In this document: one piece after another, positions 30,977-53,144 of the stretch
How positions within the stretch are numbered: the stretch's first letter is position 1
Layout of the letters: each line of letters opens with the position of its first letter
From: Nitrosospira multiformis
GTDB taxonomy: Bacteria > Pseudomonadota > Gammaproteobacteria > Burkholderiales > Nitrosomonadaceae
Assembly (NCBI RefSeq): GCF_900111585.1
Contig: NZ_FOHI01000002.1
Span: 372,001 to 436,000, forward strand
Length of the DNA stretch: 64,000 nt
Direction of reading: 5' to 3'
The notes under the pieces: model-generated
What the model saw: only the letters and a program-made list of their open reading frames with translations
Database searches by the model: none
Told to the model about the DNA's origin: nothing
Position numbers and translations under genes: made by a program

Positions 30977-30978
30977 CG

Positions 30979-31887: not shown

Positions 31888-31889
31888 GC

Positions 31890-34039: not shown

Positions 34040-36070
34040 TCAAACCTGTATCCTTTCCGCATCCTCGCTGATCACGTCGCATGCTTTTTCGCTGATCATG
34101 TAGATGGATGAAGCGATGAAGAAACCGGGTATTTTGGGGAAAACGGAAGCATCCACAATACGCAGATTCCGGGTGCCGTAGACGCGAAACCGGCTGTCGA
34201 CGACAGCCATGGGATCAGTGGCAGCGCCCATTTTACAAGTACAGGAGGCATGGTGTCCCCACGCCTGGTTTTTTATAAAACTTCGTATATCTTCACGGCT
34301 CTTGACTTCCGGACCAGGCAGAACCTCCTCTTCGATCACGTCGGAGGAAAGCCTGACGATATTGCGCACTGCTTCCACTCCGGCGACAAGCGATTCCATG
34401 TCTTCTCCAGCGTTCGTGCCTTCCGAAAAATAATGAAAGTTTATATCCGGTACATCGCGCGGATCGGCGGACCGGAGCGTGACCCGCCCGGCTGTATTAG
34501 CGGTGTGCCCCTTCAGGATGGCCCAGGTAAAGGCATTTTCCGTCCTGGCAATGTTATTGGCATAACCCGGATAATATCCGCGGAAATCCCCGATCAGGCC
34601 GAAAATGAATAAATCGGGATCCGGGCGTTCGGGAAACGAGCGCTTCATGAGCGCGATCGTCGCACCATTGGTGGTGTAAGGTCCTTCATCCCGAAGCCAT
34701 TGACTAAACTGGGAATCAGGCGCCTCACCCGGGGCGGGACAGCGGAGTTTCATTCCCTTGATCAGGGGAATGTTTTCCCTGAGCCGGGTAACCACGCCCA
34801 GTTCATAACGATCTTGCAGATTTTCTCCGACCCCTGGCAAGTCTACTTTAACCTCGATGGCATGGCCCACCAGTTCTTCCCGAGGACCGATGCCGGAGAG
34901 CTTGAGCAATTGGGGTGTATTGAATGCGCCTGCGGAAACAATCACCTCCCGTTCTGCAAGCACGGTTTCCACGGTCCCTGGGGTTGCTGTCCCATGTCGC
35001 GGATCCGCACGGTACTGATGGGCGCCGGAGATGTACTCCACCCCATAGGCCTTGTTCTGTTCATCGAGCAGGATGCGCTTCGCCAGCGCGTGAGTCCTGA
35101 CTTCGAGAAAATTCGGGCATTGCTTGCGAACGCGCAATATATACTCCCGGGCTCCCGCCCGACGCCCCTGCCGGGTGGTGATCGGTATCTTGCACAAGCC
35201 TTCTGGCCTTCTCCGGATAAAACGCCAATCGTTGGGGTCACCATGGGTTTTTATCTTGAGCAAGGTCCGTTTGATCGGGTTGATAATGCCGCTCAGTGAT
35301 TCCTCGAGCGCAGCTTTTGAAAGCTTCCTCAGGACTTTGTCCCTCAGCAGCATTTCCCGCTCTGCCAGATTTGTTGGAAGCCAGCCTTCGAATCCATGCC
35401 GACTATCCGGTTCCTCGGCCCGCCTGGCATACTCGCAGCGCTCCATGCGCTTGAAATATTTCTGCATGTGTTCGCTGTGCCAGGATTCATCGCCGGTCTT
35501 TTCGGCGATATAGTCCCAGTCGCTATTGTGGGGATAGATCAGCAGCATGGCATTGTGTGCGGTACATCCCCCCAGCGTGCCGGAGCGCGGGTACAGCACG
35601 CCGTTCTGTTCCGGAACGAACTTGTCATCCCGTTTCTGTTGCTCGTCATCCGCATAGTGACGGACAAAGAAGTCCCAGCGCAGCGCCTCGTGCTCCGAGG
35701 CACGCGCGTGAAAGGCGGGAACGTAATATTCGCAGGGATCGTCTTCTCCCCCTGCCTCCAGCAGCAGCACCCGGAAACCTTTCAACGCGAGGTTGCAGGC
35801 GAGTGGACCTCCGCCCGCTCCGGAACCGATAATGATGTAATCGAATTTGTTCCCGGCAGCGGACGGACAATTCAGGGGAGCAAAGGGTCGCGAGGACCCC
35901 TTCCAGAGAAGGGTAGAGCAACTGGCAAGAAAGGTGTTTGCACCGGATACCAGCAGGGCGCTGAGCTTGACAAAACTGCGTCGGGAGATCAAGGCGAAAC
36001 CAATCGTATTTTTCTGCGGAGAGTCGCGAAAATCATTATAAAGGAAAAGTTTCCGCCAGTTTGGTTGCAA
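34040..36070 (-). CDS. Tat-type GMC (glucose-methanol-choline) flavin oxidoreductase, probable lipoprotein
   Basis: A 676-residue FAD enzyme. A twin-arginine motif (SRRSFVK, Arg30-Arg31) precedes a hydrophobic stretch ending LASC, which could be a lipobox (Cys51). The FAD site is DYIIIGSGAGGGPLACNLAL, followed by LLLEAGGED. GGCTAHNAMLLIYP is the GMC signature. The C-terminal catalytic block is WGHHASCTCKMG, then VDASVFPKIPG. Such enzymes oxidise alcohols to carbonyls outside the cytoplasm, passing electrons to cytochromes. It is the last gene of the tyrosinase-cytochrome-GMC unit, so the adjacent di-haem protein may be its electron acceptor. The substrate is unknown. Confidence 0.85.
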   Translation of the reverse strand: MQPNWRKLFLYNDFRDSPQKNTIGFALISRRSFVKLSALLVSGANTFLASCSTLLWKGSSRPFAPLNCPSAAGNKFDYIIIGSGAGGGPLACNLALKGFRVLLLEAGGEDDPCEYYVPAFHARASEHEALRWDFFVRHYADDEQQKRDDKFVPEQNGVLYPRSGTLGGCTAHNAMLLIYPHNSDWDYIAEKTGDESWHSEHMQKYFKRMERCEYARRAEEPDSRHGFEGWLPTNLAEREMLLRDKVLRKLSKAALEESLSGIINPIKRTLLKIKTHGDPNDWRFIRRRPEGLCKIPITTRQGRRAGAREYILRVRKQCPNFLEVRTHALAKRILLDEQNKAYGVEYISGAHQYRADPRHGTATPGTVETVLAEREVIVSAGAFNTPQLLKLSGIGPREELVGHAIEVKVDLPGVGENLQDRYELGVVTRLRENIPLIKGMKLRCPAPGEAPDSQFSQWLRDEGPYTTNGATIALMKRSFPERPDPDLFIFGLIGDFRGYYPGYANNIARTENAFTWAILKGHTANTAGRVTLRSADPRDVPDINFHYFSEGTNAGEDMESLVAGVEAVRNIVRLSSDVIEEEVLPGPEVKSREDIRSFIKNQAWGHHASCTCKMGAATDPMAVVDSRFRVYGTRNLRIVDASVFPKIPGFFIASSIYMISEKACDVISEDAERIQV

Positions 36071-36161: not shown

Positions 36162-38807
36162 TCACATCGTTTTCAGGAATTCGATCAATGCGCGTTTGTC
36201 GCTATCATCCATTCCCCGCCGCCCTTCGTCTCCCGGCAGATAATCGGTTCCAAAGTAGTGACCCCGGTTGACCACGAAGTCCGGACATTTGCTTACGCCA
36301 AGCAGGGGATCGACCAGATCAGAATAGACCTTGCGTAATTCCGCATCCGTGATCCGGTCGGGCGTTACCTTGGCGGCGATCAAATCCCCCAGATGACCTT
36401 TGAGTGTCTTCAGCAGCGTCTTGACTTCGCCGCCTCTTTTTTCGAGGTCCAGATTGGATAGAAGGCTGACGGGTGTGCCCTCCGGTATGGGCCCCAGATT
36501 CAACACGCCGTCATGGATCGGCAACCTGACATACCAGGGCAGATAACCCTCCGGTATCAGCAGCCAGCTTCTCGCCCAGGTTCGGTCGATAATGCCCGGC
36601 ACTTCCTTGCCCGAGCGAGTGACATAAGTGCGGCTTTCGCAACTTGTTCGTTCCTGATCTCCATAATTCTTTTCCGCATAGTAACCTCCCGCATACAGGT
36701 CTTCCTGGTCGCAGTAGCGTTTTTCCGGCCAGAGCAATTGCTCTATCCCGCTATAAAAGGATTTCATCCTGTCTTCAACAGTCCCTGAGGGATAGAATTT
36801 GCCCAGGGTGTTATTCAACAGGAAGGGCGCCGAGGACCAGAGGCTCGCAAGCGAAGGCGGCCGGATATACCCGCGGCCACCATCAGGCATGGGATAGGAG
36901 CGCGGCTCCCGTGTCACGGGATGGTGAATCAGCGCGCTTCCCACGGAGGGCAGTTCTTTGTACGAGGTGGAGGAGAAATTATCCCAGGTATCGCCCTTGA
37001 GTGCGTTGGTTGCAAGGGAAGCGCAAATATTCGTTTCAAGGAGGGTGACAGGAACACGCAACTCGGTAGAAAGATAATTGTCAGCAAGAAAATTCTCCTT
37101 CAGAACGATTTCTTTCATTTCCTGCCTGAATTCGTCGGTCTTTGTCCAGTTCCAGTACTGGTTCCAGCAACTCAGGTAATCAGGCCCGACGCAACCGTTA
37201 TTGGGGAAGAATTCCACCGCTTTCTCCGGCAGCTTGCTCGAGTGGCAGCCGGCGCAGTTCTCCGCAAATACTTCCTTGCCGCGTTTCAGGGTGGCCGCAT
37301 CAGCGGTCAGATGACGCTGGCCTCCCGGCGCTTCCGCCAGATAATCCGGCCGGCTGGCTGCGAGGAAAAACAGCGATGTATCCAGAGTCTGGTTTTCCGT
37401 TGCCCGCCAATAGCTGGAATTCTTGTTGGCAGTGGCGATCGGGAACGGCGTGAATGGCTTGCCGCCGATCAGTGGATTGATATGCTGAAGCCACTCCTCG
37501 CTGAAAAGTCCGATATTTACGAAAACGCGGTTAAAGGCGCCGAGCGCGCCCACGGAATCTGCTCCATCCTTGAGCACCCGTGGGGTGAACACCGTGCCCG
37601 ATTTCTCGAAGAACCTTCTCAGCGGACTTTCGGAAGATATCTCCCGATAATCATTAAACTGCTTATTGTTCAGCTCATCACCCGTCAGTTGCTCCCTGCC
37701 GGAGCGCAACGCATTCTTCATCCGCGCGCCCAGGTTATATACCCCATTCATGCTGCGCGGATTGTTCATGTAGTCCGTTGAAATGAGCGAAGTATCCAGG
37801 GCGCCGGGGCGATTGGTGCTGAGGAACTGATAGGCGAAGCTGTTCTTGTCGGCTTCGTAGGCGAATATCCGGTCGAACCAGAAATATTGTGCGCCGGGAT
37901 TGGAATTAAGATTGGCCCATTGCGGGTTCTCCGGATCCTTCGGCGGATTGGAAGGGTTCGGGCCTACATGACAGAATCCGCACGACATCCCGACCCGGTA
38001 GGGCTTCACCAGATTGGCATCGTTGTAGTAGGACGGATCGGTATAATATCTTTCCGGGTCCCAGCGCTTTTTTGCGGCTTCATCGAAATCGGGATTGGGA
38101 AACAATCGCAATCCTACAATCCCGCTCGCATATCCATAGTAGGACCCGATTGGCACCGTCTTGCCGCGCGCCCCGATCTTTACGCCAGGGTATTTCTCTT
38201 CATTCTCGAACGGGTCACGCGCGCAATTCGGATCGCGCACGTCGAGATACAGGCCGAAGCGGTCCGCGCGTCCCAATGGATTGCCCTGTGCATCCATATT
38301 TTTCCTGAAGCACGGTTCATTGACAAGACCGAACCAGTACCACCGGTTATCCCGGCTATACCCCGGATTTTTCATGAGGTGCGGATGATTTGAAAGAACC
38401 TTCAGGAGATCGAAGCTGCCCTGGCTGTTGATATTGAGATGGTCCCAGAACTTGTCATCACCGCCTGTCCAGACTATCCAGTTATTCCGGCCCCTGACGA
38501 TGGCTTTTACAGCTTCTTGCGGAACGCGGGAAATACCGGGAACAAACGGCTCTAGCGTGGCGACAACCTTCTGCGGGTCTTGGCTGATCCCATAGTCCAT
38601 GTCCTTGAAGTAATCTTCGTCCGCGCCGGGGAAGCTCTCTGCTGATCGATTCGCGCATTGTGCCTCGTCCTTCACTGCTCCTGCCTTCGCAAACGGACCT
38701 TCAACACATTCAGTTGCAATCCAGGGCGGGCGCTTGTAGGCGCAGCCGATCAGCAATGTAGTCAATCCCATTGCAATGAGAGTGATGGCAACTCTTTTGG
38801 ACTTCAT
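36162..38807 (-). CDS. Di-haem c-type cytochrome lipoprotein
   Basis: An 881-residue protein. The start at 38807 gives a lipoprotein signal (MKSKRVAITLIAMGLTTLL, then IGC) and has GGAGG seven bases upstream. A longer frame to 38951 overlaps the tyrosinase and lacks this. Haem sites are CGFCH at 276-280 and CAGCH at 518-522. NPSNPPKDPENPQWANLNS and SLWSSAPFLLNNTLG align with the 28.4 kb cytochrome, so the two are paralogues. It is probably anchored to a membrane in the periplasm, between tyrosinase and GMC enzyme genes. A peroxidase, RoxA-like dioxygenase or electron-carrier role is possible. Confidence 0.75.
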   Translation of the reverse strand: MKSKRVAITLIAMGLTTLLIGCAYKRPPWIATECVEGPFAKAGAVKDEAQCANRSAESFPGADEDYFKDMDYGISQDPQKVVATLEPFVPGISRVPQEAVKAIVRGRNNWIVWTGGDDKFWDHLNINSQGSFDLLKVLSNHPHLMKNPGYSRDNRWYWFGLVNEPCFRKNMDAQGNPLGRADRFGLYLDVRDPNCARDPFENEEKYPGVKIGARGKTVPIGSYYGYASGIVGLRLFPNPDFDEAAKKRWDPERYYTDPSYYNDANLVKPYRVGMSCGFCHVGPNPSNPPKDPENPQWANLNSNPGAQYFWFDRIFAYEADKNSFAYQFLSTNRPGALDTSLISTDYMNNPRSMNGVYNLGARMKNALRSGREQLTGDELNNKQFNDYREISSESPLRRFFEKSGTVFTPRVLKDGADSVGALGAFNRVFVNIGLFSEEWLQHINPLIGGKPFTPFPIATANKNSSYWRATENQTLDTSLFFLAASRPDYLAEAPGGQRHLTADAATLKRGKEVFAENCAGCHSSKLPEKAVEFFPNNGCVGPDYLSCWNQYWNWTKTDEFRQEMKEIVLKENFLADNYLSTELRVPVTLLETNICASLATNALKGDTWDNFSSTSYKELPSVGSALIHHPVTREPRSYPMPDGGRGYIRPPSLASLWSSAPFLLNNTLGKFYPSGTVEDRMKSFYSGIEQLLWPEKRYCDQEDLYAGGYYAEKNYGDQERTSCESRTYVTRSGKEVPGIIDRTWARSWLLIPEGYLPWYVRLPIHDGVLNLGPIPEGTPVSLLSNLDLEKRGGEVKTLLKTLKGHLGDLIAAKVTPDRITDAELRKVYSDLVDPLLGVSKCPDFVVNRGHYFGTDYLPGDEGRRGMDDSDKRALIEFLKTM

Positions 38808-38895
38808 GTGGCAGCCTCCAGGGAGAAATCGAATATTATTGGTTTTTGCGGATGCCGAAAAAAGCATCTCCCGGCAATGAAAACGCAGCTTCTTT

Positions 38896-39837
38896 TTACA
38901 ACGACGTCGAGTCGTAGACGTAACCCAGATCTTCCGTATCCACCAAGTCATCGTATGATTCCCCCCACGGATCCATAATGCGGTCAGACCCGCTCAGATT
39001 GGGTTCCGCCGATGAATTGGCCTGTTGCCAGATATGCCACAAACGGTCCACTTCGGCATGATGAAACCAGAAAACGGGATCCGTGGGGGATGACATCGTA
39101 TTGTTCATGATGCCGCCCACCCAGGCATGACCGTGATTATGAGCGGGAAGGCTCGTTCCATCCGGTCTCCGGCCCCAGCCCTCGATCCCGTAAGTGAATT
39201 TCGTATAGTCATTCTCATTGTCCAGACCGGTATTCTGGATGGAGAACTGGTTAACGATGATATCCACATCTGTCGCGTTGGCTTTTTGCGGTGGCGAAGC
39301 ATTTTTGCGTGATGGTGGCGGTGTTCCCGTATTTGGATCATTTGCAGGCAGAAAACCGTTCAGCCAGGCGGGGAAGGGGTCTTCCCAGCGCCAATAGGGG
39401 ACCGCGAGTTTTTCAGTTGTACCGGGACGGAGAATAGCGTCAACACGCTGCAATTCCCGCTCGAACTCGACGAGATAACGGCGATGCCAGCCCAGAAAAC
39501 GGTAAAGGCCTGTCTCGCCCATCATGCCATGCATGTCATGCGACATGTCCATGTGAAACTGGACCAGTTCGAGGTATTTGCCCTCCTCTACCAGACGAAC
39601 AACCGCATTGCGGAATGCCTCCCGTTTTTCCGGCGAAAGGTCCGCCTGATTCTGGCGAGTGACCGGTGCGCCCGGCGGTTTGGGCGCAAAGGCGGCTGCT
39701 CCACCAAGCAGGGGTTTTACCAGTTTCTTATGGATATCCTTAAGCAGCTCCAGCTTGTCCAGGGGAAAGCCGAGAGCGAGAACTTCATCGAAGGTTTTGG
39801 GGTGAAGGTGCCCGCCGGTCTCATGCGAATGGTCCAT
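38896..39837 (-). CDS. Tyrosinase-family di-copper oxidase
   Basis: A 313-residue protein without a signal peptide. The ATG at 39837 has AGGAG six bases upstream; the frame is open further back but that part looks non-coding. The copper-B site is textbook: His233 and His237 in PAHNHGHAWVGG, and His260 in DPVFWFHHAEVDRLW. For copper A, His118 in FLGWHRRYL is clear. However, the partner expected nine residues before it is Thr109, and candidate histidines sit further away (95, 100, 103). Family members hydroxylate phenols or oxidise diphenols. It is the first gene of the cytochrome-GMC unit. Confidence 0.85.
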   Translation of the reverse strand: MDHSHETGGHLHPKTFDEVLALGFPLDKLELLKDIHKKLVKPLLGGAAAFAPKPPGAPVTRQNQADLSPEKREAFRNAVVRLVEEGKYLELVQFHMDMSHDMHGMMGETGLYRFLGWHRRYLVEFERELQRVDAILRPGTTEKLAVPYWRWEDPFPAWLNGFLPANDPNTGTPPPSRKNASPPQKANATDVDIIVNQFSIQNTGLDNENDYTKFTYGIEGWGRRPDGTSLPAHNHGHAWVGGIMNNTMSSPTDPVFWFHHAEVDRLWHIWQQANSSAEPNLSGSDRIMDPWGESYDDLVDTEDLGYVYDSTSL

Positions 39838-40350
39838 TTTTTTGCTCCTGACAAAGGGTTTAAGGAAAACAACCAGCGCAATATGACTCTCGCTTGATGC
39901 CAATACGCCTTGCACACAGTAACTATAGTACATGGCGATTGATCCGCTCGATTTTACATAGTCCGATTATGACCTGTCTGCGCTTGAGTTTGAGCGCAAT
40001 CGAGAACTCTGTGCCCAAAGGCATTTCGCTTCAAAAAGCCCGCCCCTTTACGGCCGTTGATGGCAAGGGTGGCACTGCAAGTCTTACCCTGCATCAAAAT
40101 GGCTAGCGCAAGGCAGCGTCGCGGATCGGGCGAATGGTAACCTGAACTTAGGGGATGAGCGGAGTGGGATGTTGGGGAAAAATTCTACTTCTAAGCTGTC
40201 TCCTTGACAGGGAAGCCGGTGCTGATACCAGCTCCCCCACCATTTATAGAAGACGTGGAAGAATAACCTCTATCTCATTGCGGCAGAGAATGAGCAAATC
40301 TGAAGGGAGAAACGTTAAATGAGGGATGAGAATCTTTAGCGGTGTAAGCG
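39838..40350. other. Divergent intergenic region upstream of the tyrosinase unit
   Basis: About 510 bases without a gene between the tyrosinase unit and the acetyltransferase. It should contain the promoter of the minus-strand unit. No recognisable boxes or inverted repeats stood out. Confidence 0.35.
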
Positions 40351-40791: not shown

Positions 40792-41185
40792 CTCCGTGGC
40801 GACTGCAGGTATGTAAGGAGGCCCAGAGTAAGAACGAACCCATCAAGGCCATGGCCCGAAGATCGGTTTCGCCAAGGCCAATGCCAAGAATCAACAAAAG
40901 GATGCACCTGATAAAAATTCACATTGACTAATTGGGGATCGGATATATGATGAAATAGGGGGGTAAGCGGAGGCGCCTGAGTCTGAGTGGGTGGACCCAA
41001 TTTCTGATGGGCAGGATTGATCTTCGGTCCTGTTTTTGAAGAGCGGGATATGAGGCGAGCAACCGGAGAAAACCTTGTTTGGAAGAGCTGCTACAACGAG
41101 TCCGGGATGCGGTAGGAGCAGCCGAATCCTGTGTGGTGCGGCTTGGGTTAATGAAGAATGCGCAACAGGAGATAGGGAGGTAATA
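40792..41185. other. Intergenic region between the acetyltransferase and the 143-residue protein
   Basis: About 390 bases with no supported gene; short frames here have no family resemblance. The right edge carries GGGAGG five bases before the next ATG. Confidence 0.35.
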
Positions 41186-41617
41186 ATGGCTTACGATATT
41201 CAGCAGGTGATCAATATGTCGCAAGAGGAGCTCGATAAATTGTTTTCTTCCGGGGAAGTCGGCGAGATACCGGACGGTGAAGCAAAGGGCACCGCTATTA
41301 TCGCGCCCGGCACGCCTTACAACTATGCAATCGCGCAGGTCATCAATTTTTTTGCCTGGCAGGGAAAGATTTTTGATGCCAAGACAAGTACCTTGAAGAA
41401 CGAAATTTCACCTTTTGGCTTTCGCGCGATCATCGCCAAGGTGTACAAGGACGATAGCTGGTTCGACCACAAGCCGTGCATTGTTCTCGATTATTCGGAA
41501 ACCTCCACAGTTGCCCAACGGATCCGTGACGAAATCCGCAAGGTGGCGGACAAGCAATATCTGGGAAAGGTTTACTGGGGCAACAAGCACCTTATAGACT
41601 TCTTCCTGCAGTTCTGA
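41186..41617 (+). CDS. Small soluble protein of an unnamed family shared with the 31 kb lipoprotein
   Basis: A 143-residue protein starting MAYDIQQVINMSQEELDKLF, with GGGAGG placed five bases before the ATG. There is no signal peptide. Its landmarks are GEIPDGEAKG, AWQGKIFD, CIVLDYS, IRDEIRKV and QYLGKVYWGN. They occur in the same order in the 302-residue lipoprotein at 31 kb. The layout of strands around WxGKxF and DxxRxV...LG loosely recalls GXWXG/DUF4334 proteins, a lipocalin-like guess only. It lies 211 bases upstream of the peroxidase operon and may be part of it. Confidence 0.65.
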   Translation: MAYDIQQVINMSQEELDKLFSSGEVGEIPDGEAKGTAIIAPGTPYNYAIAQVINFFAWQGKIFDAKTSTLKNEISPFGFRAIIAKVYKDDSWFDHKPCIVLDYSETSTVAQRIRDEIRKVADKQYLGKVYWGNKHLIDFFLQF

Positions 41618-41828
41618 GTTATCTGAGTGATTCCGCCACACTCCGCTTTCAGGCATTCGGGTTGAAGGTTTGAGACTTCAAACAGGTTTGTGGTTATCGG
41701 AACTCCGTCGTTTCACGATGACGTCTGTTTCACTGACGGGCTCAGCTTATACTTCGCAATCGGGTGGCAGGAAACCGGTTGAGCAGAAAAACAAGAAGTC
41801 GTATAAATATCGAGTGAGATAAAAAGCC

Positions 41829-43133
41829 ATGACACCTCAATCCAGCTTCATGATTGTTGCGGCTGTACGTGACGGGCAGTTGAAAGACCTGCGCGCCTTA
41901 CTGGCTTCGATGAATAACCTGCCCGGTCATGCTGACCCCACCAATGAACTGGTTCCATTCGGGAAGTTTGATCGCCTGCACTTCGCACGTTTCGTGATCA
42001 TAGAAGCAAGAACCGCGCAGGAAATTAGAGCATTCGGTGTAACGCCAAGACCGTGGCAACCCACACTCGCCTTTCTTGGCGATATTGACGGGGATATGCA
42101 GACTTTTTTTCTGGAACTGATTGAGCGCGCAGAGTCAGGTCTAAAAAAAATCTTTTCTCATTGCGAAGGTTTTTCTGAGGAAAATCAGGATCTGCTGGGC
42201 TGGATGAAGGCAAACAATATAAATGCCAGCGCCACCTATGTTAACTGGATCGGGCGAACGGTCAGGCAAATCCATGAAGAAGCAGCGCTCCATCGAAGTT
42301 TGTCTACCTATCTGCAGAAAACTGCAGACGATGTGGGCCGGGAAAATGTCCGTACTTTACGGCAAAAGCTGTTGTCTTATGTCGAAATGGAAAAATATAA
42401 AGGCAGGCTTACGTTAACCCCGCCAGAACCCACACCCCCCGAATGGAAAATGCGCAATCTTCTGCATATGATCGGGATTCCATTGATCCTGCTTCTTCTA
42501 TCTCCGCTATTACTGGTTATTGCACTTATCTTTGCGCTACGTTTGAGAATGCTCGAACGCTCTGACCCTGAACTCTTTATCCGGCCCAGCCGTGAACATT
42601 TGGCGGAGCTTACGGTGCAGGAAGATCGGGATGTCAGTAATCAGTATAGTGTGTTCGGCGATGTGAAACCTGGCGTGGTCCGCTTACTGACTTTCAAATT
42701 CGTACTCCTGGTGACCGACTATTTTGCCAGGCACATATACAACCACGGATTTCTCGCCCGAATAAAAACGATTCATTTTGCCCGGTGGGTGTTCATGGAC
42801 AATAACCATAGGGTTTTTTTCGCCAGCAATTATGATGGCAGCCATGAAAGCTATATGGATGATTTTATCAATAAGGTTGGCTGGGGCCTCAATCTTACAT
42901 TCACCAATGGTGTCGGTTACCCCACCACCCGGTGGATCATCAAGCAAGGTGCAAACCGGGAACATGCATTCAAATATACGCAAAGGCGGCATCAAATACC
43001 CACCGAGGTTTGGTATAAGGCGTACCCGGGATTAACAGCCGTTGATCTGGCGCGAAACAGTCGTATCCGGCAAGGCGTGGAAATTCGGCAATCCAATGAT
43101 GCGGAAATCCGTGAATGGCTCAGCCTGATCTGA
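41829..43133 (+). CDS. Membrane protein with two related halves, first gene of the peroxidase operon
   Basis: A 434-residue protein with one strong membrane hairpin or helix (about residues 222-248) between two soluble parts. The parts share a motif: FDRLHFARFVIIEA near residue 47 and IKTIHFARWVFMDN near 312. Each is followed by a strand ending in a Gly/Asn-x-Asp-Gly turn (FLGDIDGD and FASNYDGS). This suggests duplication of a ferredoxin-like unit, the fold also used by DyP peroxidases. No named family is recognised. It ends five bases before the peroxidase ribosome site clears, so the genes are coupled. It may be an anchor or partner for the peroxidase. Confidence 0.65.
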   Translation: MTPQSSFMIVAAVRDGQLKDLRALLASMNNLPGHADPTNELVPFGKFDRLHFARFVIIEARTAQEIRAFGVTPRPWQPTLAFLGDIDGDMQTFFLELIERAESGLKKIFSHCEGFSEENQDLLGWMKANNINASATYVNWIGRTVRQIHEEAALHRSLSTYLQKTADDVGRENVRTLRQKLLSYVEMEKYKGRLTLTPPEPTPPEWKMRNLLHMIGIPLILLLLSPLLLVIALIFALRLRMLERSDPELFIRPSREHLAELTVQEDRDVSNQYSVFGDVKPGVVRLLTFKFVLLVTDYFARHIYNHGFLARIKTIHFARWVFMDNNHRVFFASNYDGSHESYMDDFINKVGWGLNLTFTNGVGYPTTRWIIKQGANREHAFKYTQRRHQIPTEVWYKAYPGLTAVDLARNSRIRQGVEIRQSNDAEIREWLSLI

Positions 43134-43144
43134 GGAGCATGGAA

Positions 43145-44659
43145 ATGAAAGACTCAAGCGATTTTGAATTCGATGACCTTCAGGGGCTGCTGCGCTTTGG
43201 ATATGGGAAGCTGACGGATACCTCTTTCATGTTGCTGAATATCGTAAATGCCGATCTGGCCAAAAAATGGCTGGAGACAGCACCCATCAGCAGCGCCCTT
43301 ACGCAGGATCCTCCGCCAGAAACGGCGCTGCAGATTGCCTTTTCCGTGGAGGGTCTGCGCGCCCTCGGATTGGAGGAATCCGTTGTCGAGGGCTTTTCCG
43401 ATGAGTTCATCGTGGGTATGGCAGGAGATGAAAGCCGTTCCCGCCGCCTGGGTGATGTCGGCAGCAATGCGCCGCAGCAGTGGAAATGGGGAGGACATGC
43501 GGCACAGGTGCCGCATGTCCTGTTACTGCTTTACGCCACGAAAGGAGGCATCGATGCCTGGCAAAAAACCATAGAAGGCGAACATTTCTCCAATGCATTT
43601 GAGTTGCTGCAGGAATTACCTACGCTTTATATCGGTGACATCGAGCCTTTCGGATTTCCGGATAGCATCAGCCAGCCAACCGTGGACTGGATGCAGCGGC
43701 AAAGCACGGATACTCACGAGCGCGATCGTTATTCCAACTTGCTGGCTCCTGGAGAAATCGTACTTGGCTATCGCAATGAATATGGGCAGTACACTGCGCG
43801 GCCACTCATCGATCCCCGGAAAGACAAGCTTGCAACCGTGCTGCCGGGCGCCGAGGAGGATCCCCCACTAAAGGATTTCGGCCGTAATGGCACATATCTG
43901 GTGCTTCGTCAGCTGAGCCAGGATGTTCCGGGCTTTTGGCAGTTTCTTGACCAGGTGGCGGATCACATACCGGAAAAACGCGAGCAACTTGCCGCAGCGA
44001 TGGTGGGCCGGGAACTCGATGGTACACCTTTGGTTCCGGCACACATTCCCGGTATTTCACGCAAAGAATATGAGAACGATTTTACCTATGACCAGGACCC
44101 AAAGGGGAACTATTGCCCGCTCGGCGCACATGTGCGCCGGTCCAATCCACGTACAGGCGATTTGCCCACGAGTGCATGCGGTCCCCTAGACCGGGTGATC
44201 AAAATACTGGGTTTTGGTCAAAGGCCGGATGAAGATCTGATCGCCTCTTCCCGTTTTCATCGTCTGCTGCGGCGTGGTCGCACTTATGGGCCAGCACTTG
44301 CACCGAAAGACGCCATCGAGCGCCATGCACCTGTTGCCGAACGGGGAATACAGTTTATCTGCCTAGTGGGCAACATATCGCGGCAATTCGAATTTGTTCA
44401 GAATGCATGGACCATGAACAGTAAATTCGATGGCGTACAAGATGAAAAAGATCCAATGCTGGGGAATCGCGAACCCTTGATGAGCGGTGAGAGCACTGAT
44501 CATTTCAATTCTCCCGATCCGGCCGGGCCGATGCGGACAACCTGTCATTTACCGCAGTTTGTTGCCACACTTGGCGGCGGATATTTTTTTATGCCCGGGC
44601 TGCGCGCACTCAAATACATTTCCGCCTTACCTGCTAACAGGACTGGTAGCCCATCATGA
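43145..44659 (+). CDS. DyP-type haem peroxidase
   Basis: A 504-residue cytoplasmic protein without a signal peptide. The start DDLQGLLRFGYGKL is the usual DyP opening. The haem-ligand block is CPLGAHVRRSNPR (His329), and the distal motif GXXDG appears as GFPDS, with Asp173 kept and the last Gly changed to Ser174. DyP peroxidases use hydrogen peroxide or organic hydroperoxides to oxidise dyes, phenols and other compounds. The ATG at 43145 is chosen because GAGGAG lies seven bases upstream. The stop overlaps the next gene by four bases (ATGA), which ties it tightly to the catalase-like protein. Confidence 0.87.
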   Translation: MKDSSDFEFDDLQGLLRFGYGKLTDTSFMLLNIVNADLAKKWLETAPISSALTQDPPPETALQIAFSVEGLRALGLEESVVEGFSDEFIVGMAGDESRSRRLGDVGSNAPQQWKWGGHAAQVPHVLLLLYATKGGIDAWQKTIEGEHFSNAFELLQELPTLYIGDIEPFGFPDSISQPTVDWMQRQSTDTHERDRYSNLLAPGEIVLGYRNEYGQYTARPLIDPRKDKLATVLPGAEEDPPLKDFGRNGTYLVLRQLSQDVPGFWQFLDQVADHIPEKREQLAAAMVGRELDGTPLVPAHIPGISRKEYENDFTYDQDPKGNYCPLGAHVRRSNPRTGDLPTSACGPLDRVIKILGFGQRPDEDLIASSRFHRLLRRGRTYGPALAPKDAIERHAPVAERGIQFICLVGNISRQFEFVQNAWTMNSKFDGVQDEKDPMLGNREPLMSGESTDHFNSPDPAGPMRTTCHLPQFVATLGGGYFFMPGLRALKYISALPANRTGSPS

Positions 44660-45861
44660 CGAAGATAAAGAACCGGATACTGAAGGCTATTCACAATTTT
44701 CTGATTCTGTTGCTACGGATCGAACGCCGGCTGGAACCCTGGTTCCGCGCACAGTGGAACTATCTCTTTCGCGAACCCAGCGCGAAGTTTATTCAGTATT
44801 TGATCAATCGCCGACGCAAGAACGAAGGTTTGCAGCTGGCCGAAGAAAAATTCTATCCGGATGAAGAAGAAAGCCTGAACAAGATTATCGATCTCATGAT
44901 GGATCAGATGCGCGGGCGTTTCAAACCGGGAGGATATGAGCGGGGCGGCAATACAAAAACACACGGCATTGTGCGTGCCACGGTAACCATACGAGATGAT
45001 TTGCCGGAACATTGCCGCAAGGGTATTTTTGCCAATCCACGCACTTATCCTGCCTATGTGCGTTATTCCGGACCGGGACCGAATGTGCCTGCGGATATCA
45101 ATGATGTCGGTTTCATGAGCATGGCGGTGAAACTCATGGGGGTTCCGGGCGAAAAACTCATGAGCGAGGAGAAATTCACGCAGGATTTCATAACGACCAG
45201 TGGTGGCGCGACATTCGTCACACCCAACACTCGCGAAAACGCCAAGCTGCAATACTGGAGCCTGGTGGACATGACACTTTATTATTTTCTCAATCCCAAG
45301 GATTCCCACCTGCTTGACTTCTTCATGCAGAGCCTGTGGAATGAAACTCAATATAATCCGTTGGGACGGCGTTACTGGAGCTGCACTCCCTATCTGCTGG
45401 GAGAGGGACAGGCCATGATGTATTCATTCGTACCGAAAACGACAGATGTTGAAACCCATATTCCCGGTCTGCCATTTGGCACCCCCCCATTTAATTATCT
45501 GCGGGAGAACATGATCAAGACCTTGAATGAGAAGGATGTCGAGTTTGATCTTATGATTCAACTCCAGACGGACCCTCATTTGATGCCTATTGAAGATAGT
45601 TCGGTACGCTGGCCGGAAGAGCTTTCCCCGTTTATTCCTGCTGCCACGGTTCATATCCCGAAACAGAAATTTGATTCCGACGCCCAGTTTGAGTTTGCCA
45701 AGCGACTGAAAATGAATCCGTGGCATTGCCTGCCTGAACACCGGCCGTTAGGCAATCTGAATCGGGCACGCTTCAGAATGTATTATGAACTATCCAAATT
45801 CCGGCAGGAGATGAATGAAACCACCCATCTTGAACCAACCGGGGATGAGATATTCGATTAG
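44656..45861 (+). CDS. Catalase-like haem protein resembling coral allene oxide synthase
   Basis: A 401-residue protein of the small catalase-related class. The distal histidine lies in NTKTHGIVRATV (Thr102-His103). Thr before the His is the arrangement of coral allene oxide synthase, where true catalases have Val. FANPRTYPAYVRYSGPGP and NDVGFMSMAVKLMG are catalase-like core blocks. The proximal tyrosine fits R-x3-Y at Arg372-Tyr376 (RFRMY). By eye the distal Asn is Ser182. A hydrophobic N-terminus (about 9-30) may touch membranes. It probably acts on fatty acid hydroperoxides rather than hydrogen peroxide; this is inferred from the motif and the lipoxygenase next door. Confidence 0.8.
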   Translation: MTKIKNRILKAIHNFLILLLRIERRLEPWFRAQWNYLFREPSAKFIQYLINRRRKNEGLQLAEEKFYPDEEESLNKIIDLMMDQMRGRFKPGGYERGGNTKTHGIVRATVTIRDDLPEHCRKGIFANPRTYPAYVRYSGPGPNVPADINDVGFMSMAVKLMGVPGEKLMSEEKFTQDFITTSGGATFVTPNTRENAKLQYWSLVDMTLYYFLNPKDSHLLDFFMQSLWNETQYNPLGRRYWSCTPYLLGEGQAMMYSFVPKTTDVETHIPGLPFGTPPFNYLRENMIKTLNEKDVEFDLMIQLQTDPHLMPIEDSSVRWPEELSPFIPAATVHIPKQKFDSDAQFEFAKRLKMNPWHCLPEHRPLGNLNRARFRMYYELSKFRQEMNETTHLEPTGDEIFD

Positions 45862-45903
45862 TATTTTTTACAGTATCACTCCTTATTTCAGGACACGTAA
45901 CAG

Positions 45904-45921
45904 GGCTAATAAAAATTAGCC
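45904..45921. terminator. Candidate hairpin after the catalase-like gene
   Basis: GGCTAA and TTAGCC form a six-base perfect stem around an A-rich loop, about 43 bases after the stop. No T run follows on the plus strand, so it may be only a weak terminator. Confidence 0.35.
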
Positions 45922-45970
45922 TGAAGCCCTAGGCGAAACTGTTACGTCCATCAAGCGTCCCGAGATCGGT

Positions 45971-45994
45971 CATACCACCTCATTGGGTGGTGTG
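45971..45994. terminator. Candidate bidirectional hairpin between the convergent operons
   Basis: CATACCACC and GGTGGTGTG make a nine-base stem with one G-T pair and a six-base loop, between the catalase-like gene and the lipoxygenase 3' end. There is no clear T run, so this would be a transcript-end structure rather than a classical intrinsic terminator. Confidence 0.4.
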
Positions 45995-46020
45995 GAGCTA
46001 TCGCTGTAATTTCCCCCCCA

Positions 46021-47685
46021 TTAAATGGTTACACCGTTTGGAATGAATCTTGGATTCATGCGATCATAGGCGAAAGAACGTCTGCTATTTCTTTGGTCGA
46101 TTTCCTCTTCTATTTCCTTCAACCTGTCCCCAAACCGCTCTATTACCTCGTGTGCTTCAGAATCGAATTGCTGTAAGTTGTACTGACCGAGCGAGTTGAC
46201 ACGAAAATTTGTCAGAAAATAGGTCCAGGTTTGCGAATAAGCAGCTCGAAACGCTGGCTGAAACTTCAATAATCCAGCTGCATCAATTTCAGCGTTTTTT
46301 CCAACCGGAGGCGGCGCATAAGCTGAATGCGGCATATTGGGAACGAATCCCGGATATTTGTATTGGTTGAAGTGAATGCACGAATGAAAAGCAGTACATA
46401 GAAAAATGATATGACCGAGAGTCTCGCTCAGCTCTTGCCTGGATTCGAAGCTGGCAGGAAACCCGGGAATCCTGCCACGATCCCGTGCGCTGATATCATG
46501 TGCCCATGCCTGAATTTCATAGTCATCAATAATATCCGCTTCAGATTTGTAATATAAATCCACATATTCTTTGCTAAAGCCTTGAATCGCATTCCACAGC
46601 AAAATGCCATCATCGCGATAGGGATAAAAAAGATCAGGATTATCGACTTCGCGCTTCGCAATATCATCAGGGAAGGCGGATTCTTTAAAATTAAAGCTTG
46701 TCATGCCATTGGCCATGCACTGTGTCATCGAGTCATAGTCTCCGGCAAATAACTCACCGTACCGGCCCGGCCGTCCTTTCCGGTCTTTCAGGAAAGTGTG
46801 CTGGTGATTGACATTGAGCGTATGCTGAAGATGCGGATTCAATAGAACGTAAAGCGGGTGAGATTTATAAAGCTGTCTTCGTGAAGCCATGATAATGGCT
46901 TCCATCACGTAATGAATACGGGTTGCATGGGTATACAGGATGTGATGGTTGCCATCCGCGACCTGGGCAAATATTTTTGCTGTCAGCCAGAGATTGCGGT
47001 CTTTTGACGTATAGATTGGATTATTGGGCCTGTCATCCTGGTATAGCTGGATGGCAATCGGCCGCAGCATGCCGTCCGGTTGCAGAAACAACACGACGAT
47101 CGGAGTCGTGACATATTGTTTTTGCCCGCCGTCGATATACCCCGGGTTTGACTGCAATACATCCAGGACTGCATAGTCCAGGACGTATATGCGTCTTTGC
47201 TCGGTGGCAGCCATATAGTCGATCTCATCAATCTGCTCTTCAAAAATTTGTCGTATCTCAGGTTCCGGCAGCTTTTCCGGTAGCGGATTCTGACGGGTTA
47301 CAGCGCGCAATATCACAGGATTTACTCCAATGACGCGCTGCAGGCCAAATATCAGGTCTTGCTGGAAGCTATCCACGAGATCGGGATTTGGAGGACTCGC
47401 CGGAAAAAAAACATAATCCCGATAACTTTCCATCGGCTTGCCGAGCAAGTAGCGTAAAAAGGTAATCGATAGGCTGGGTAAACTTGGAATCAACCGTAAA
47501 AGATTCATTCCCCCACGGAGCCAATATCCAATGCCGGGTATCTCCCGCCATGGCAGTTTACGAACGACTGCAATAGTATTGGCATACTCATAGGCGTATT
47601 GATACTCAGCTTGCCTCTGAAGAAGATAATTCTTCCGATCTTCTTTACCTGTATTTTCTTCATTCTGCGGTAGCTTGTTCGACAC
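46021..47685 (-). CDS. Lipoxygenase
   Basis: A 554-residue non-haem iron dioxygenase that inserts O2 into polyunsaturated acyl chains. The classical H-x4-H-x4-H-x17-H-x8-H signature is exact (His248, 253, 258, 276, 285). The iron ligands are His253 and His258, His434 and His438 in AFHSCIHFNQY, and the C-terminal carboxylate of Ile554 (RFIPNGVTI). A PLAT domain is absent; about 100 unassigned residues precede the catalytic core. The GTG start is backed by AAGGAGG five to six bases upstream. It follows the cyclooxygenase homologue by 76 bases on the same strand, a likely operon. No signal peptide is visible. Confidence 0.93.
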   Translation of the reverse strand: MSNKLPQNEENTGKEDRKNYLLQRQAEYQYAYEYANTIAVVRKLPWREIPGIGYWLRGGMNLLRLIPSLPSLSITFLRYLLGKPMESYRDYVFFPASPPNPDLVDSFQQDLIFGLQRVIGVNPVILRAVTRQNPLPEKLPEPEIRQIFEEQIDEIDYMAATEQRRIYVLDYAVLDVLQSNPGYIDGGQKQYVTTPIVVLFLQPDGMLRPIAIQLYQDDRPNNPIYTSKDRNLWLTAKIFAQVADGNHHILYTHATRIHYVMEAIIMASRRQLYKSHPLYVLLNPHLQHTLNVNHQHTFLKDRKGRPGRYGELFAGDYDSMTQCMANGMTSFNFKESAFPDDIAKREVDNPDLFYPYRDDGILLWNAIQGFSKEYVDLYYKSEADIIDDYEIQAWAHDISARDRGRIPGFPASFESRQELSETLGHIIFLCTAFHSCIHFNQYKYPGFVPNMPHSAYAPPPVGKNAEIDAAGLLKFQPAFRAAYSQTWTYFLTNFRVNSLGQYNLQQFDSEAHEVIERFGDRLKEIEEEIDQRNSRRSFAYDRMNPRFIPNGVTI

Positions 47686-47761
47686 GAGGCCCTCCTTTAT
47701 AAAAATAAGGTTCTCGCCTGGTTTCCATAGCTTTTTTTCTATGTGCCCTATCTTTCACTGA

Positions 47762-49357
47762 TCACTGGACAGATGTATTGAAGCTTGCAACGACAGTATC
47801 CCTATCCCTTACATTACGTTTGACGATATCCGCAAGTGAGCCTGTTTCTTCAATAACGGATTGTCCAACCTTTGAAAATGTCTTTTCATTGTGTACATAA
47901 ATCGATACAAGCGGGTTTGTCAGCGCATGGGTAAACGCATCGTACCCCACCATCCGTACCATAAGGCGCCCAAGACTGAAGCCTTCATCATGATCTTCGG
48001 CAAATATGCCAACCTGCCACTCCAGATCGTCGATCCGGTCTTTATAAAGGTTCTTCAGTTCCCGCTGTAGTTCGCTGTCTTCCGTCAATTCCTCGAAACT
48101 CTGCAAACGCGGCATGCTGAATGCTTCCCGATAGTCATTGAAGGGGCGCAACTTGGCCTGCCGTCCCATTGCGATGGAGCGCTCCATGACACTTCGATTA
48201 TCGTCACCAATGGGCAGCGGATAGAAAAAGTAATCATGTGTATTGTGAAGACCAATACGACCCGCTCTTTGCATCGATGCAGCCGTTATCAACCTTCCGA
48301 TGCCATGTTGAATTACCAGCGGGGTATTGTTACGAAACGCATCCAGCGGATAGGACTGGTTACCGACTCTGTAGCTTTCCGGAACCATGGAATGCCACCG
48401 ATACAGGAGGTTGAATTCCAGAGAGATCCAGTTGGTGCGGTACCAGCGCTGCCTTTCCGCCAGATCAGGGGATGGGTCGAGGGTAAAACCGAACTGTGTA
48501 AAACGCGAAACGTAATCCGCCAGAACCACTTTGATCAGCAGCACAACCATGATGTTTCTTGCGGTCTGAAACAGGCGTTCATCATCCCATTTCGGGTAAG
48601 CTTCTTTTAGCAGGTCACAAATCCGGTTGTGTTCACGCAACATCACAGTATTCATTATGGTATAGCCAACCGATGAGTTGCCGTGCTCCAGTCCCGCGGC
48701 AAACATGCGTTTCAACCGTTCCTCGGGGAGATTGCTAAAAACAAAATCCAGAACCTCGCGGGGATGCAGCTTCTCGAATTCTTTATCTGCGAATACCCAG
48801 TTGCCTGTAGTCGTTTCCTCCACGTTAAAAAGGTAGGGAGGAAAAATTTCCTCATCGATAATCTGGTACTTCAGCTTCCCATCTTTTTTCAACCGTAAAT
48901 AATGCGTAATTTCTTCCCGCAAACCATAGATCTGGCAAAGATCGATTTCATGGTTCGATGTATTTTTCCGGCGATCGCGAAAATCCGTCCTGAGGAAACT
49001 ATCGGTAAACCACTGGGCAAAGAAAGCAAACAGTATGCTTGTATCGACCGAAGGTATTTCCTTGTTCTCTTTTCTTCGCCATAAATCAACGACTCTTTCC
49101 ATGTCCGGAAGATTTTGATCGCCTTCCGCCTCTGGCAGATGCCGTCCGGTAAATGTCTTGTCAGTCAACGATTGCCATGTCGTATAAGATGAAGCCATCG
49201 AGAACGGCCGGGGCCGAGGGTTTGTGGAATAGGCTTGCCAATTGACAAAAGCGTCACTGATAAACCGCCGTAACCATGTTATCCGCGAAACAATTCTGAC
49301 GAGCCGGGGAAATCTGCTCGCAATCCGAAACAGGATCGGGAAAAAGAATTCATACAT
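47762..49357 (-). CDS. Prostaglandin H synthase (cyclooxygenase) homologue
   Basis: A 531-residue animal-type haem peroxidase closest in wording to animal COX (LREHNRICDLLKEAYPKWDD, KYQIIDEEIFPP). The N-terminus (residues 3-40) matches the COX membrane-binding helices; the EGF domain is missing. Compared with remembered COX sequence, Arg120 is Arg72, Tyr348 is Tyr282, the radical Tyr385 is Tyr319 and the proximal His388 is His322 (LYRWHSM). Gln203 is Gln115, but distal His207 is Asp119, and Tyr355 becomes Phe. Oxygenase chemistry looks possible while peroxidase activity looks impaired. It is upstream of the lipoxygenase and diverges from the subtilase. Confidence 0.92.
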   Translation of the reverse strand: MYEFFFPILFRIASRFPRLVRIVSRITWLRRFISDAFVNWQAYSTNPRPRPFSMASSYTTWQSLTDKTFTGRHLPEAEGDQNLPDMERVVDLWRRKENKEIPSVDTSILFAFFAQWFTDSFLRTDFRDRRKNTSNHEIDLCQIYGLREEITHYLRLKKDGKLKYQIIDEEIFPPYLFNVEETTTGNWVFADKEFEKLHPREVLDFVFSNLPEERLKRMFAAGLEHGNSSVGYTIMNTVMLREHNRICDLLKEAYPKWDDERLFQTARNIMVVLLIKVVLADYVSRFTQFGFTLDPSPDLAERQRWYRTNWISLEFNLLYRWHSMVPESYRVGNQSYPLDAFRNNTPLVIQHGIGRLITAASMQRAGRIGLHNTHDYFFYPLPIGDDNRSVMERSIAMGRQAKLRPFNDYREAFSMPRLQSFEELTEDSELQRELKNLYKDRIDDLEWQVGIFAEDHDEGFSLGRLMVRMVGYDAFTHALTNPLVSIYVHNEKTFSKVGQSVIEETGSLADIVKRNVRDRDTVVASFNTSVQ

Positions 49358-49706
49358 AATCTCATACCCCTTCTTCGCGTAAGCGGCAAGTCACCGCTGA
49401 CTCCCATATTCTTGTTTTTTAGAACGGTGGTATATGTGCACGGGTAGAGATCGACAAACAATGAATTGCTCATTTTTCGACTCTGTCAACCTGCATGCTC
49501 AAATGGCTGCTTTTCGCCGCCGGGCTGAAATCGGAAATCTCGCGACCCGCACAAAAACATGCTTTGTCATAAATATCTTCAATTCACAATAGTTCATAAA
49601 AAAGGGGACGTCAAAACCGGTGATCTGTTGTAAAAGCTAAAAAATAGCCTAATATCAGAATGGAATGCGAATGCAACGTTATCCTGGCTCATGACAAGAG
49701 GTCGCA
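49358..49706. promoter_or_regulatory. Divergent control region between the COX-like and subtilase genes
   Basis: About 350 AT-rich bases that must hold the promoter of the COX-LOX pair (minus strand) and that of the subtilase-hydrolase pair (plus strand). No strong -35/-10 pair or operator could be assigned by eye. AAGAGG stands five bases before the subtilase ATG. AAGGGG is about nine bases before the COX-like ATG. Confidence 0.45.
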
Positions 49707-51797: not shown

Positions 51798-51836
51798 TTT
51801 TGAAAGTATAAAAAAGAGAAAAAAAGGAGCATGGCC

Positions 51837-53144
51837 ATGAATGAAATCGCAGGAATTCCTTATGTGGAAGCAAGCTTCGACAAGAACGGCCAGGGTCCTG
51901 AAGAGGAGGTCGTTCTGGCTGCCGGGGTGACCGACCTTATCATCATGTCGCACGGGTGGAACAACAACAAGTCCAAGGCAGAAGATCTATATAACAGCTT
52001 TTTTGCAAGCTTTGCCGCTGCCGCCCAGCCAAACGATTTATCCGGGCGAAAGCTTGGCATTCTGGGGGTATTCTGGCCATCCAGGGAATACGATACGTCT
52101 GTTGCCGTTTCAGGTACTCCTGCCACTGGGGGAGGTGGCGCAGCCCTCGGGGGGGGAAACGGCGATTCGACCAAGCGGCTGGAAGAGAAACTGGATGACA
52201 TGAAAGAAATTTTCACGGAGACGGAGCAGAAGAAACTTCTTGATGAGGCGAAAGCATTGCTTCCGGATCTCGAGGAAAAAGCCTCGGTCCGGGGTCAATT
52301 TGTGAACAAAATGCGCTCCCTGCTTGATCCGAGCGCGGCAGGCAAAGAGGATGCATCCAATATCTTCTTCAAGGATGACGGCAACGAACTGATGAAAAAC
52401 CTGAAGGCCGAGGAAGAGGATCTGGGCGAGGATGTGGCGGGAGGCGGAGCAGCGTTGCCGCTCGGGGTGAGCGCTCCCGCACCGGCAGAAGGCGGAGCGG
52501 CGGGATTGGTAGAGATTCTTTCCGGATTCAAGGCAGCTGCCATAAATCTGCTCAACTATACCACCTACTACGAGATGAAGACGCGATCGGGAACCGTGGG
52601 TAAGAACGGGGTTGCCCCGCTGATCGATAAACTTGCCTCTCAGATCGAACGCATCCATCTGATCGGGCACAGCTTCGGCTGCCGTGTCGTCACCTCGGCG
52701 GCGCTCGGCTCGAAAACCGACAAGATAAAAAGCATGATACTCATCCAGGCGGCCTTCTCCCAGAATGGGTTTTCAAGGATTGAACAGGGATTTTACCGTG
52801 CGGTCGTGGATAATCATCGAGTCAAGGGCGCGGTCCTTATCACACATACGCCCAACGATAGAGCAGTAGGTCTGGCATATCCGCTCGCATCTCGCATCAG
52901 CGGCGATAAAACCATGGCGTTTGGCGATAAGGATGATCTGTTTGGGGCGATGGGCCGTAATGGAGCGCAGAAAATGGAGCACGGCGAAGCCGTCGAAGGC
53001 AAGCTGCTTTCCGTAGGCGGCACCTATGCTTTCAAGGCCAATACTTATTTCAATCTTGAAGCCAGCGATTTCATCAAGAACCACAACGACATAAAAGGGA
53101 AGGAAGTTGGCTACGTGGTGCGCAGGGCCGTCGCAACCGCATGA
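51837..53144 (+). CDS. Alpha/beta-fold hydrolase
   Basis: A 435-residue protein. The nucleophile elbow is LIGHSFGCRVV and an early oxyanion-type block is IIMSHGWNNNK. A Gly/Ala-rich, Glu-rich insert of about 150 residues (roughly 85-235) separates strands of the core. ITHTPNDRAVG near residue 340 may supply the acid residue. Lipase, esterase or amidase activity is possible. The ATG at 51837 is preferred because AGGAG lies seven bases upstream; another ATG at 51831 is too close. It sits with the subtilase and could in principle release acyl chains for the oxygenases, which is speculation. Confidence 0.78.
   Translation: MNEIAGIPYVEASFDKNGQGPEEEVVLAAGVTDLIIMSHGWNNNKSKAEDLYNSFFASFAAAAQPNDLSGRKLGILGVFWPSREYDTSVAVSGTPATGGGGAALGGGNGDSTKRLEEKLDDMKEIFTETEQKKLLDEAKALLPDLEEKASVRGQFVNKMRSLLDPSAAGKEDASNIFFKDDGNELMKNLKAEEEDLGEDVAGGGAALPLGVSAPAPAEGGAAGLVEILSGFKAAAINLLNYTTYYEMKTRSGTVGKNGVAPLIDKLASQIERIHLIGHSFGCRVVTSAALGSKTDKIKSMILIQAAFSQNGFSRIEQGFYRAVVDNHRVKGAVLITHTPNDRAVGLAYPLASRISGDKTMAFGDKDDLFGAMGRNGAQKMEHGEAVEGKLLSVGGTYAFKANTYFNLEASDFIKNHNDIKGKEVGYVVRRAVATA

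Follow-up and report, generated by a model that had tools for sequence, protein, structure and literature searches.

We analysed a 64,000-nucleotide stretch of the Nitrosospira multiformis genome (contig NZ_FOHI01000002.1, positions 372,001 to 436,000; hereafter the window), in which a gene for a cyclooxygenase (COX)-like haem dioxygenase lies directly upstream of a lipoxygenase (LOX) gene. Eicosanoid chemistry is founded on these two enzyme families, COX and LOX. The pair was found in two genera, together with a group of neighbouring genes that includes one for a catalase-related protein (CAT). Judged from its sequences, the products of this cluster are probably oxidised fatty acids with a signal-like or defensive role. 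We consider it fairly likely that the encoded enzymes form an oxylipin pathway of nitrifiers, in which fatty acids are oxygenated in several steps; this would be a variant of the known pair of linoleate 10S-dioxygenase (10S-DOX) and catalase-related lyase. One conserved bacterial gene pair holds both eicosanoid-founding families, in organisms that drive nitrification, and it offers a tractable system for asking what roles COX-type and LOX-type enzymes have in bacteria.

The COX-LOX gene pair and its conservation

The COX-like gene (47762..49357, minus strand) encodes 531 amino acids (aa) from an ATG start, and the LOX gene (46021..47685, minus strand) encodes 554 aa from a GTG start. They are separated by 76 bases (47686..47761, minus strand), which contain the ribosome site AAAGGAG. 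The sizes of the two reading frames, their common strand and their spacing are all as described in a first-pass annotation of this DNA, which had been made by a model from the letters alone. The strong ribosome site that it had noted ahead of LOX is likewise real, AAAGGAG being exact in 11 of 16 loci and altered by one or two changes in the other five. The spacing between the two genes was approximately 54-184 bases across all 16 loci. No terminator-like or promoter-like site was found on the minus strand of the 76-base gap, which weakly supports a single COX-LOX transcript.

The pairing was surveyed in 108 genomes, 23 from the Nitrosospira group and 85 from Nitrosomonas. LOX was present in 8 of the 23 Nitrosospira-group genomes (8 of 61 in the wider set of relatives) and in 9 of the 85 Nitrosomonas genomes. 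The same 17 genomes carried a COX ortholog (74-97% identity in the others), directly upstream of LOX in every case, and neither ortholog was found alone among the 108 genomes. The side-by-side arrangement pointed out in the first-pass annotation is therefore a recurrent one, adjacent in 17/17 LOX-bearing genomes of two genera. COX-like genes of 39-49% identity were found in three LOX-less Nitrosomonas genomes, and far An_peroxidases in three more. Among 80 named COX-like loci LOX lay directly downstream in 14, all from Nitrosospira, Nitrosovibrio or Nitrosomonas; none of the other 66 had a LOX in the stretch read, these stretches often being short. A second COX-like gene, also with a distal Asp, is located on the same contig outside the window (C10:493460-494941; L023, L037). 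This second copy (39-43% identity across genomes) was found in all 8 LOX-bearing and in 1 of the 15 other Nitrosospira-group genomes, with no LOX beside it.

Neither protein is new on its own. Putative bacterial cyclooxygenases (PMC4420034) and a lipoxygenase of Nitrosomonas europaea (review PMC11941309) are already mentioned in the literature. Among the matches listed, no open-access title or abstract start described the COX-LOX pair or the cluster, the subscription literature being mostly outside this scope. Each enzyme class had been called rare in bacteria. This agrees with a reported occurrence of LOX in <0.5% of species (PMC6612559), and it is less true of the COX-like protein, for which 338 stretches were found to encode a relative in a scan of genome contigs whose patterns favour the COX-like family.

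Active sites of the COX-like protein and the LOX

The COX-like protein scored 148.5 bits with the Pfam An_peroxidase model (cut-off 25). Its residues 12-518 were aligned to chain positions 64-547 of COX-2 (3krk_A, E 2.4e-68, phmmer), a nearly full-length match that covers the stretch of the COX membrane-binding helices, as judged by alignment only. The top PDB matches were COX-1 and COX-2, while peroxinectin, alpha-dioxygenase and lactoperoxidase scored much lower. The LOX scored 199.2 bits with Pfam Lipoxygenase (cut-off 23.6), so that the profile searches bear out both family assignments of the first-pass annotation and did not move the COX-like protein to a peroxidase family without the COX helices. 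The EGF module is absent, just 11 residues preceding the part aligned to COX-2 chain position 64.

Active-site positions were read from an alignment of 90 rows, consisting of the window protein, 80 genome-scan loci (the best 80 of 338 relatives) and nine paralog loci. A COX-profile E value of 1e-40 or lower was required, a limit that kept out the An_peroxidases of L046 and L074 as well as a second An_peroxidase each in L085 and L088. Positions are given in the usual COX numbering; those other than Arg120 and Gln203 also appear in PMC13049297. The equivalents of Tyr385, Trp387 and His388 were kept in 90/90 rows, as was the Arg of the Tyr385-His388 motif (Y/R/W/H), and the Gln203 equivalent was kept in all 89 readable rows. 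In the window protein the radical Tyr is Y319, the proximal His is H322, both of them residues that had been noted before, and the Gln203 equivalent is Q115. The nearest row to the window protein was that of Nitrosospira multiformis Nl18 (97% identical).

Four other positions were found to be replaced. The distal His207 position is Asp in all 89 readable bacterial rows (one gap), and in the window this residue is D119 within the motif F117-T-D-S-F121. The Ser530 position is Ala in 90/90 rows (A474 in the window), the Gly526 position is Val or Ile in 90/90 (Val 62, Ile 28; V470 in the window), and Arg was seen at the Arg120 position in none of 89 readable rows (Q41 in the window). The equivalents of Tyr348 and Ser353 in the window are Y282 and T287. 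At the position of Gln490 of 10S-DOX the 90 rows had Gln (70), His (17) or Val (3).

The linoleate 10S-dioxygenase of Nostoc punctiforme (UniProt B2J5P4) has a distal F143-t-d-s-F and Ala487, makes an open-chain 10S-hydroperoxide and works with a catalase-related lyase (PMC13049297, a 2026 review). It has in common with the window protein the COX fold family, the Tyr, the proximal His, the Asp within F-t-d-s-F, the Tyr348 equivalent, Thr at Ser353 and Ala at Ser530, and in both cases there is a catalase-related partner gene. The two differ at V470 and H477 of the window protein, which are Ile483 and Gln490 in the Nostoc enzyme. As a system the window further differs in that its protein appears to belong to another clade, that a LOX is added, and that the CAT has Asn for the distal His and is located on the opposite strand. 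The window protein is homologous to the animal cyclooxygenases (PGHS-1/2) over nearly its whole length, the part aligned to their membrane-binding helices included, and shares with them the radical Tyr and the proximal His; unlike them it leaves no room for an EGF module and lacks the distal His, Arg120, Gly526 and Ser530. With the distal His gone, one may ask how the Tyr radical would be formed. Since Asp is also reported in the active Nostoc enzyme, the site of the COX-like protein need not be dead.

On these sequence comparisons the window protein is best placed in the distal-Asp family rather than among cyclooxygenases, although apparently in a clade of its own and with changes at two positions of the pocket (V470 and H477). 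The name cyclooxygenase given to it in the first-pass annotation is probably wrong as a description of its chemistry, as all four positions are replaced and the distal-Asp relative makes a linear hydroperoxide. A genuine prostaglandin-type pathway, in which a polyunsaturated acid would be turned into a cyclic endoperoxide by the COX-like protein, with the LOX providing a leukotriene-like branch, is highly improbable in our estimate. The best PDB matches to COX-1 and COX-2 would fit such a pathway, as would the retention of the Tyr385, Trp387, His388, Gln203, Tyr348, Val349 and Leu384 equivalents in the window. However, the changes of H207 to D, G526 to V, S530 to A and R120 to Q speak against it, and so do the 10S-hydroperoxides made by the described relative. 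Ring closure is controlled by Leu384 and Gly526 according to a title cited in PMC13049297, and of these two Gly526 alone is changed. A true cyclooxygenase was rejected as the preferred interpretation on account of the four changed active-site positions.

The LOX matches the mini-LOX of Cyanothece (PDB 5med) over its whole length, including the N-terminal extension (E 1.2e-73), and is of the same type. The five iron ligands claimed for it were all located by aligning it with coral 8R-LOX and Cyanothece LOX, and are H253, H258, H434, H438 and the C-terminal I554. The four ligand His were invariant in 8/8 orthologs, and the last residue was Ile in seven and Val in one. At the second ligand of the C-terminal pair the window LOX has His (H438), whereas the Cyanothece and coral rows have Asn.

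The catalase-related protein and the six-gene module

The CAT gene (44656..45861, plus strand) encodes 401 aa. The window CAT alone matched no Pfam family at E 0.1 and no PDB entry at E 1, and an 8-row CAT profile gave three chance-like PDB matches (E 0.05-0.12). A 32-row family profile was found to match catalase 6rjr (E 3.6e-17) and coral allene oxide synthase 1u5u (E 1.4e-14). Pfam Catalase was detected at E 0.01 in 23 of the 32 family members, the window CAT not being among them. The 32-row alignment (A5) did not include the Nitrosospira orthologs past L078, which are nearly identical, or the CATs of L115 and L137, which are broken or partial. The proximal Arg-x-x-x-Tyr is kept in the window (R372-FRM-Y376), with Arg in 32/32 and Tyr in 28/32 rows, and the R-x-x-H of the family falls on the R-x-x-H of catalase in the printed alignment to 6rjr. 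The distal His position, His in 25/32 rows, is occupied by N99 in the window (G98-N99 in place of Thr-His), and the distal Asn position, Asn in 22/32 rows, by S182.

Asn in place of the distal His, an assignment that for N99 is based on alignment, was found in every module-type CAT examined (four A5 rows, L179, L180, the DyP-fused CAT of L181, and L191-L197). H103 of CAT is Tyr in L180 and L181, and is therefore unlikely to stand in for the distal His. A distal Thr-His, which the title of a cited paper gives as the hallmark of fatty-acid-hydroperoxide catalases, was present in 10 of 15 readable cyanobacterial CAT rows. As the window CAT lacks this hallmark, its activity cannot be read from those catalases. 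From its sequence it is a catalase-related protein, for which we infer a role as hydroperoxide isomerase or lyase. P450 hydroperoxide isomerases use a distal Asn, and by analogy an isomerase role for CAT would be reasonable.

The presence of CAT was found to follow that of the pair. In the Nitrosospira group a CAT of 93-100% identity was present in 8/8 LOX-bearing and 0/15 other genomes (with a 29% relative in one of these), and in Nitrosomonas a CAT of 89-94% identity was present in 9/9 LOX-bearing and 1/76 other genomes. Any CAT match was found in 38 of the 85 Nitrosomonas genomes, 28 of which have 32-41% relatives only. Altogether a close CAT ortholog was present in 17/17 pair-bearing versus 1/91 other genomes (Fisher p 7e-19, a value that treats genomes as independent, which they are not). 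In cyanobacteria a CAT-like gene is located 3' of the COX-like gene, on the same strand and within approximately 0.5 kb, in 18 of 28 loci (in two broken pieces in L115).

CAT is the last gene of a plus-strand block that ends 159 bases from the end of LOX and consists of orf41075, G41829, DyP and CAT, with end-to-start overlaps among the last three. The small conserved protein orf41075 (41186..41617) belongs to an open reading frame of 41075-41617, with a likely start at 41186 as judged from where the matches of relatives begin. G41829 (41829..43133, 434 aa) is a protein of unknown family, and the gene for the DyP-type peroxidase (43115..44659, 514 aa) shares a few bases with the gene on each side. 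Further left, on the minus strand, are genes for a tyrosinase-type protein (38896..39933, 345 aa), for a di-haem cytochrome c protein (36162..38951, 929 aa, two CxxCH) that is distantly related to di-haem cytochrome c peroxidases, and for a GMC oxidoreductase (34040..36070, 676 aa). The di-haem cytochrome c, GMC oxidoreductase, orf41075, G41829, DyP and CAT genes are referred to as the six-gene module. The best PDB match of DyP was 8re2 (E 8.6e-39), its scores being under the NCBIfam and Pfam cut-offs. D183, R265 and H339, the distal Asp, distal Arg and proximal His of the DyP motifs, were invariant in 9/9 sequences of an alignment (A6) from which the row of L032 was excluded owing to a stop codon within the span. 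The di-haem cytochrome c protein gave a single, chance-like match in a search against PDB.

In the Nitrosospira group orf41075, G41829, DyP and CAT were found beside the pair in 8/8 loci. The cytochrome gene was found there in 6/8, the stretches of L032 and L036 ending before it, and the GMC gene in the window and partly in L035, where the other stretches end before it. The tyrosinase-type gene was present in the window and in three of the seven other stretches (L030, L031 and L033), absent from L034 and L035, and undecidable in L032 and L036. In Nitrosomonas, three of the five stretches fetched around the pair (L191, L192 and L194) have all eight genes of pair and module within 20 kb, orf41075 being represented by an orf41075-like gene. 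L195 holds seven of the eight, COX being just beyond its edge (G811), and L193 holds six, with the cytochrome and GMC genes upstream on the same contig (L085). The other two of the seven Nitrosomonas stretches read (L191-L197), L196 and L197, have the six-gene module without the pair. In genome G865 the pair is located on another contig than the module, and in L081 the pair is kept with no module gene within 10 kb on either side.

It is quite improbable that the genes are chance neighbours, the COX-LOX pair and the six-gene module being separate units merely close to each other in an AT-richer accessory island. The guanine plus cytosine (GC) content, 0.46-0.51 at 40-50 kb of the window (40001-50000) versus 0.53-0.56 in flanking bins, would agree with such an island, as would the location of CAT and pair on different contigs in 3/9 Nitrosomonas genomes and the occurrence of the module alone in genome G869. 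The co-occurrence of 17/17 versus 1/91 over two genera speaks against it, and on this pattern of occurrence a plain chance neighbourhood was disfavoured.

A lipid-peroxide defence module is an unlikely alternative. CAT, DyP and the di-haem cytochrome would then clear membrane hydroperoxides, and the LOX and COX-like protein would act on damaged or foreign lipids with no dedicated product. All three of these proteins have relatives in catalase or peroxidase families, which agrees with this, as do the pairless module of G869 and the stretches of G191 and G643, where CAT, DyP and G41829 occur without COX or LOX by profile (profiles can miss other An_peroxidases). However, two enzymes that create hydroperoxides are not needed for defence, and CAT has Asn at the distal position where His would be expected for catalase activity.

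The G41829-DyP-CAT block was also found in other Pseudomonadota (L063, L064, L179, L180 and L181). DyP and CAT are in one frame in L181, a 1047-aa An_peroxidase adjoins the block in two of the five (L064 and L181), and the cytochrome and GMC genes are in line with it in L179. G41829 and DyP are joined in frames of 1409-1544 aa in L182-L185, L188 and L190, and the two frames scanned (L182 and L190, 1409 or 1544 aa) have a P450 domain N-terminal to G41829-DyP. CAT-like and An_peroxidase domains are found in one 1088-aa frame in L074:8356-11622, which resembles a cyanobacterial catalase-haem-dioxygenase fusion mentioned in PMC11719350. Cyanobacterial catalase-LOX fusions are described there as well. 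The window cluster is like these and like the coral allene oxide synthase-lipoxygenase in that a catalase-related protein is linked to a LOX or haem dioxygenase; it differs from them in that the genes are separate, CAT is far diverged, and LOX and COX-like protein are both present. By analogy, these ties of the module to enzymes that make or use fatty-acid hydroperoxides would support the oxylipin pathway. The cluster adds to the pair a CAT with a changed distal pocket and a partner, G41829, which is met repeatedly alongside DyP, P450, CAT and large An_peroxidases. The first gene of L072 encodes at least 974 aa in one frame, which begins with a catalase-like domain.

Proposed pathway and neighbouring genes

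In the oxylipin pathway that we favour, the COX-like protein would use its Tyr radical for the addition of O2 to an acyl chain with one or two double bonds, in the manner of 10S-DOX and without ring closure, and the LOX would add O2 to a 1,4-pentadiene at another position. CAT may then isomerise or cleave a hydroperoxide, and DyP may act on hydroperoxides. The GMC/cytochrome pair might oxidise the alcohol or aldehyde so formed, cytochrome c accepting the electrons and passing them on. A dedicated oxylipin pathway based on two different acyl-chain dioxygenases had been proposed in the first-pass annotation. Of that proposal the joint encoding of the two families and their pairing in two genera stand, and the cluster points to an oxylipin-type pathway; the cyclooxygenase chemistry was not upheld.

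Several observations weigh against this pathway. The COX-like protein keeps Leu384, Val349 and Tyr348 of COX, and in our alignment its identity to the protein of Nostoc sp. XA010 (39.5%) exceeds that to COX-2 (34.7%) only slightly. In a tree in which the characterised strain was represented by Nostoc sp. XA010, it was located outside the cyanobacterial clade, in a separate Nitrosomonadaceae clade within the distal-Asp family. The COX and LOX trees have 7/13 splits in common, with supported conflicts on both sides, so that strict joint descent of the two genes is not shown. The missing Thr-His hallmark of CAT, the separate contigs of CAT and pair in 3/9 Nitrosomonas genomes, and genome G869, with the six-gene module and neither COX nor LOX, also belong here. 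These bacteria are not known to make the polyunsaturated chain that the LOX needs, and FA_desaturase genes were found in 23/23 genus genomes independently of the pair. A desaturase supplying the diene was rejected as a partner of the pair, since it does not track it.

We regard as rather unlikely a more specific scheme, in which nitrifiers take up polyunsaturated acids that they do not make themselves, such as the linoleic and linolenic acid of roots or algae. The 10S-DOX-like protein and the LOX would introduce oxygen at two positions, and a CAT isomerase with a distal Asn would convert the hydroperoxides. Inhibitors would thereby be disarmed or an inter-kingdom signal made. Linoleic and linolenic acid are plant-made nitrification inhibitors. 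If this scheme were true, the COX-like protein and the LOX would be two arms of one prokaryotic oxylipin pathway, and if the substrates are plant fatty acids the cluster would bear on the response of soil nitrifiers to plant nitrification inhibitors.

The low GC content at 40001-50000 of the window resembles that of acquired DNA, and the 18-20 kb bin was also low (0.485). Divergent from the COX-like gene, at 49707-53144 on the plus strand, are genes for a subtilase (696 aa) and an alpha/beta-hydrolase-like protein (437 aa). Both were present in 8/8 Nitrosospira-group pair loci and were not found by profile in the eight Nitrosomonas loci L081-L088. Three plus-strand genes at 28436-33884, encoding 846, 302 and 682 aa, echo parts of the cluster. 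The 846-aa protein shows 25% identity to the 929-aa cytochrome c protein, and weak matches under cut-off to models of di-haem cytochrome c peroxidase and of rubber oxygenase. The 302-aa protein is a relative of orf41075 (E 1e-7). The 846-aa and 682-aa proteins have two CxxCH each.

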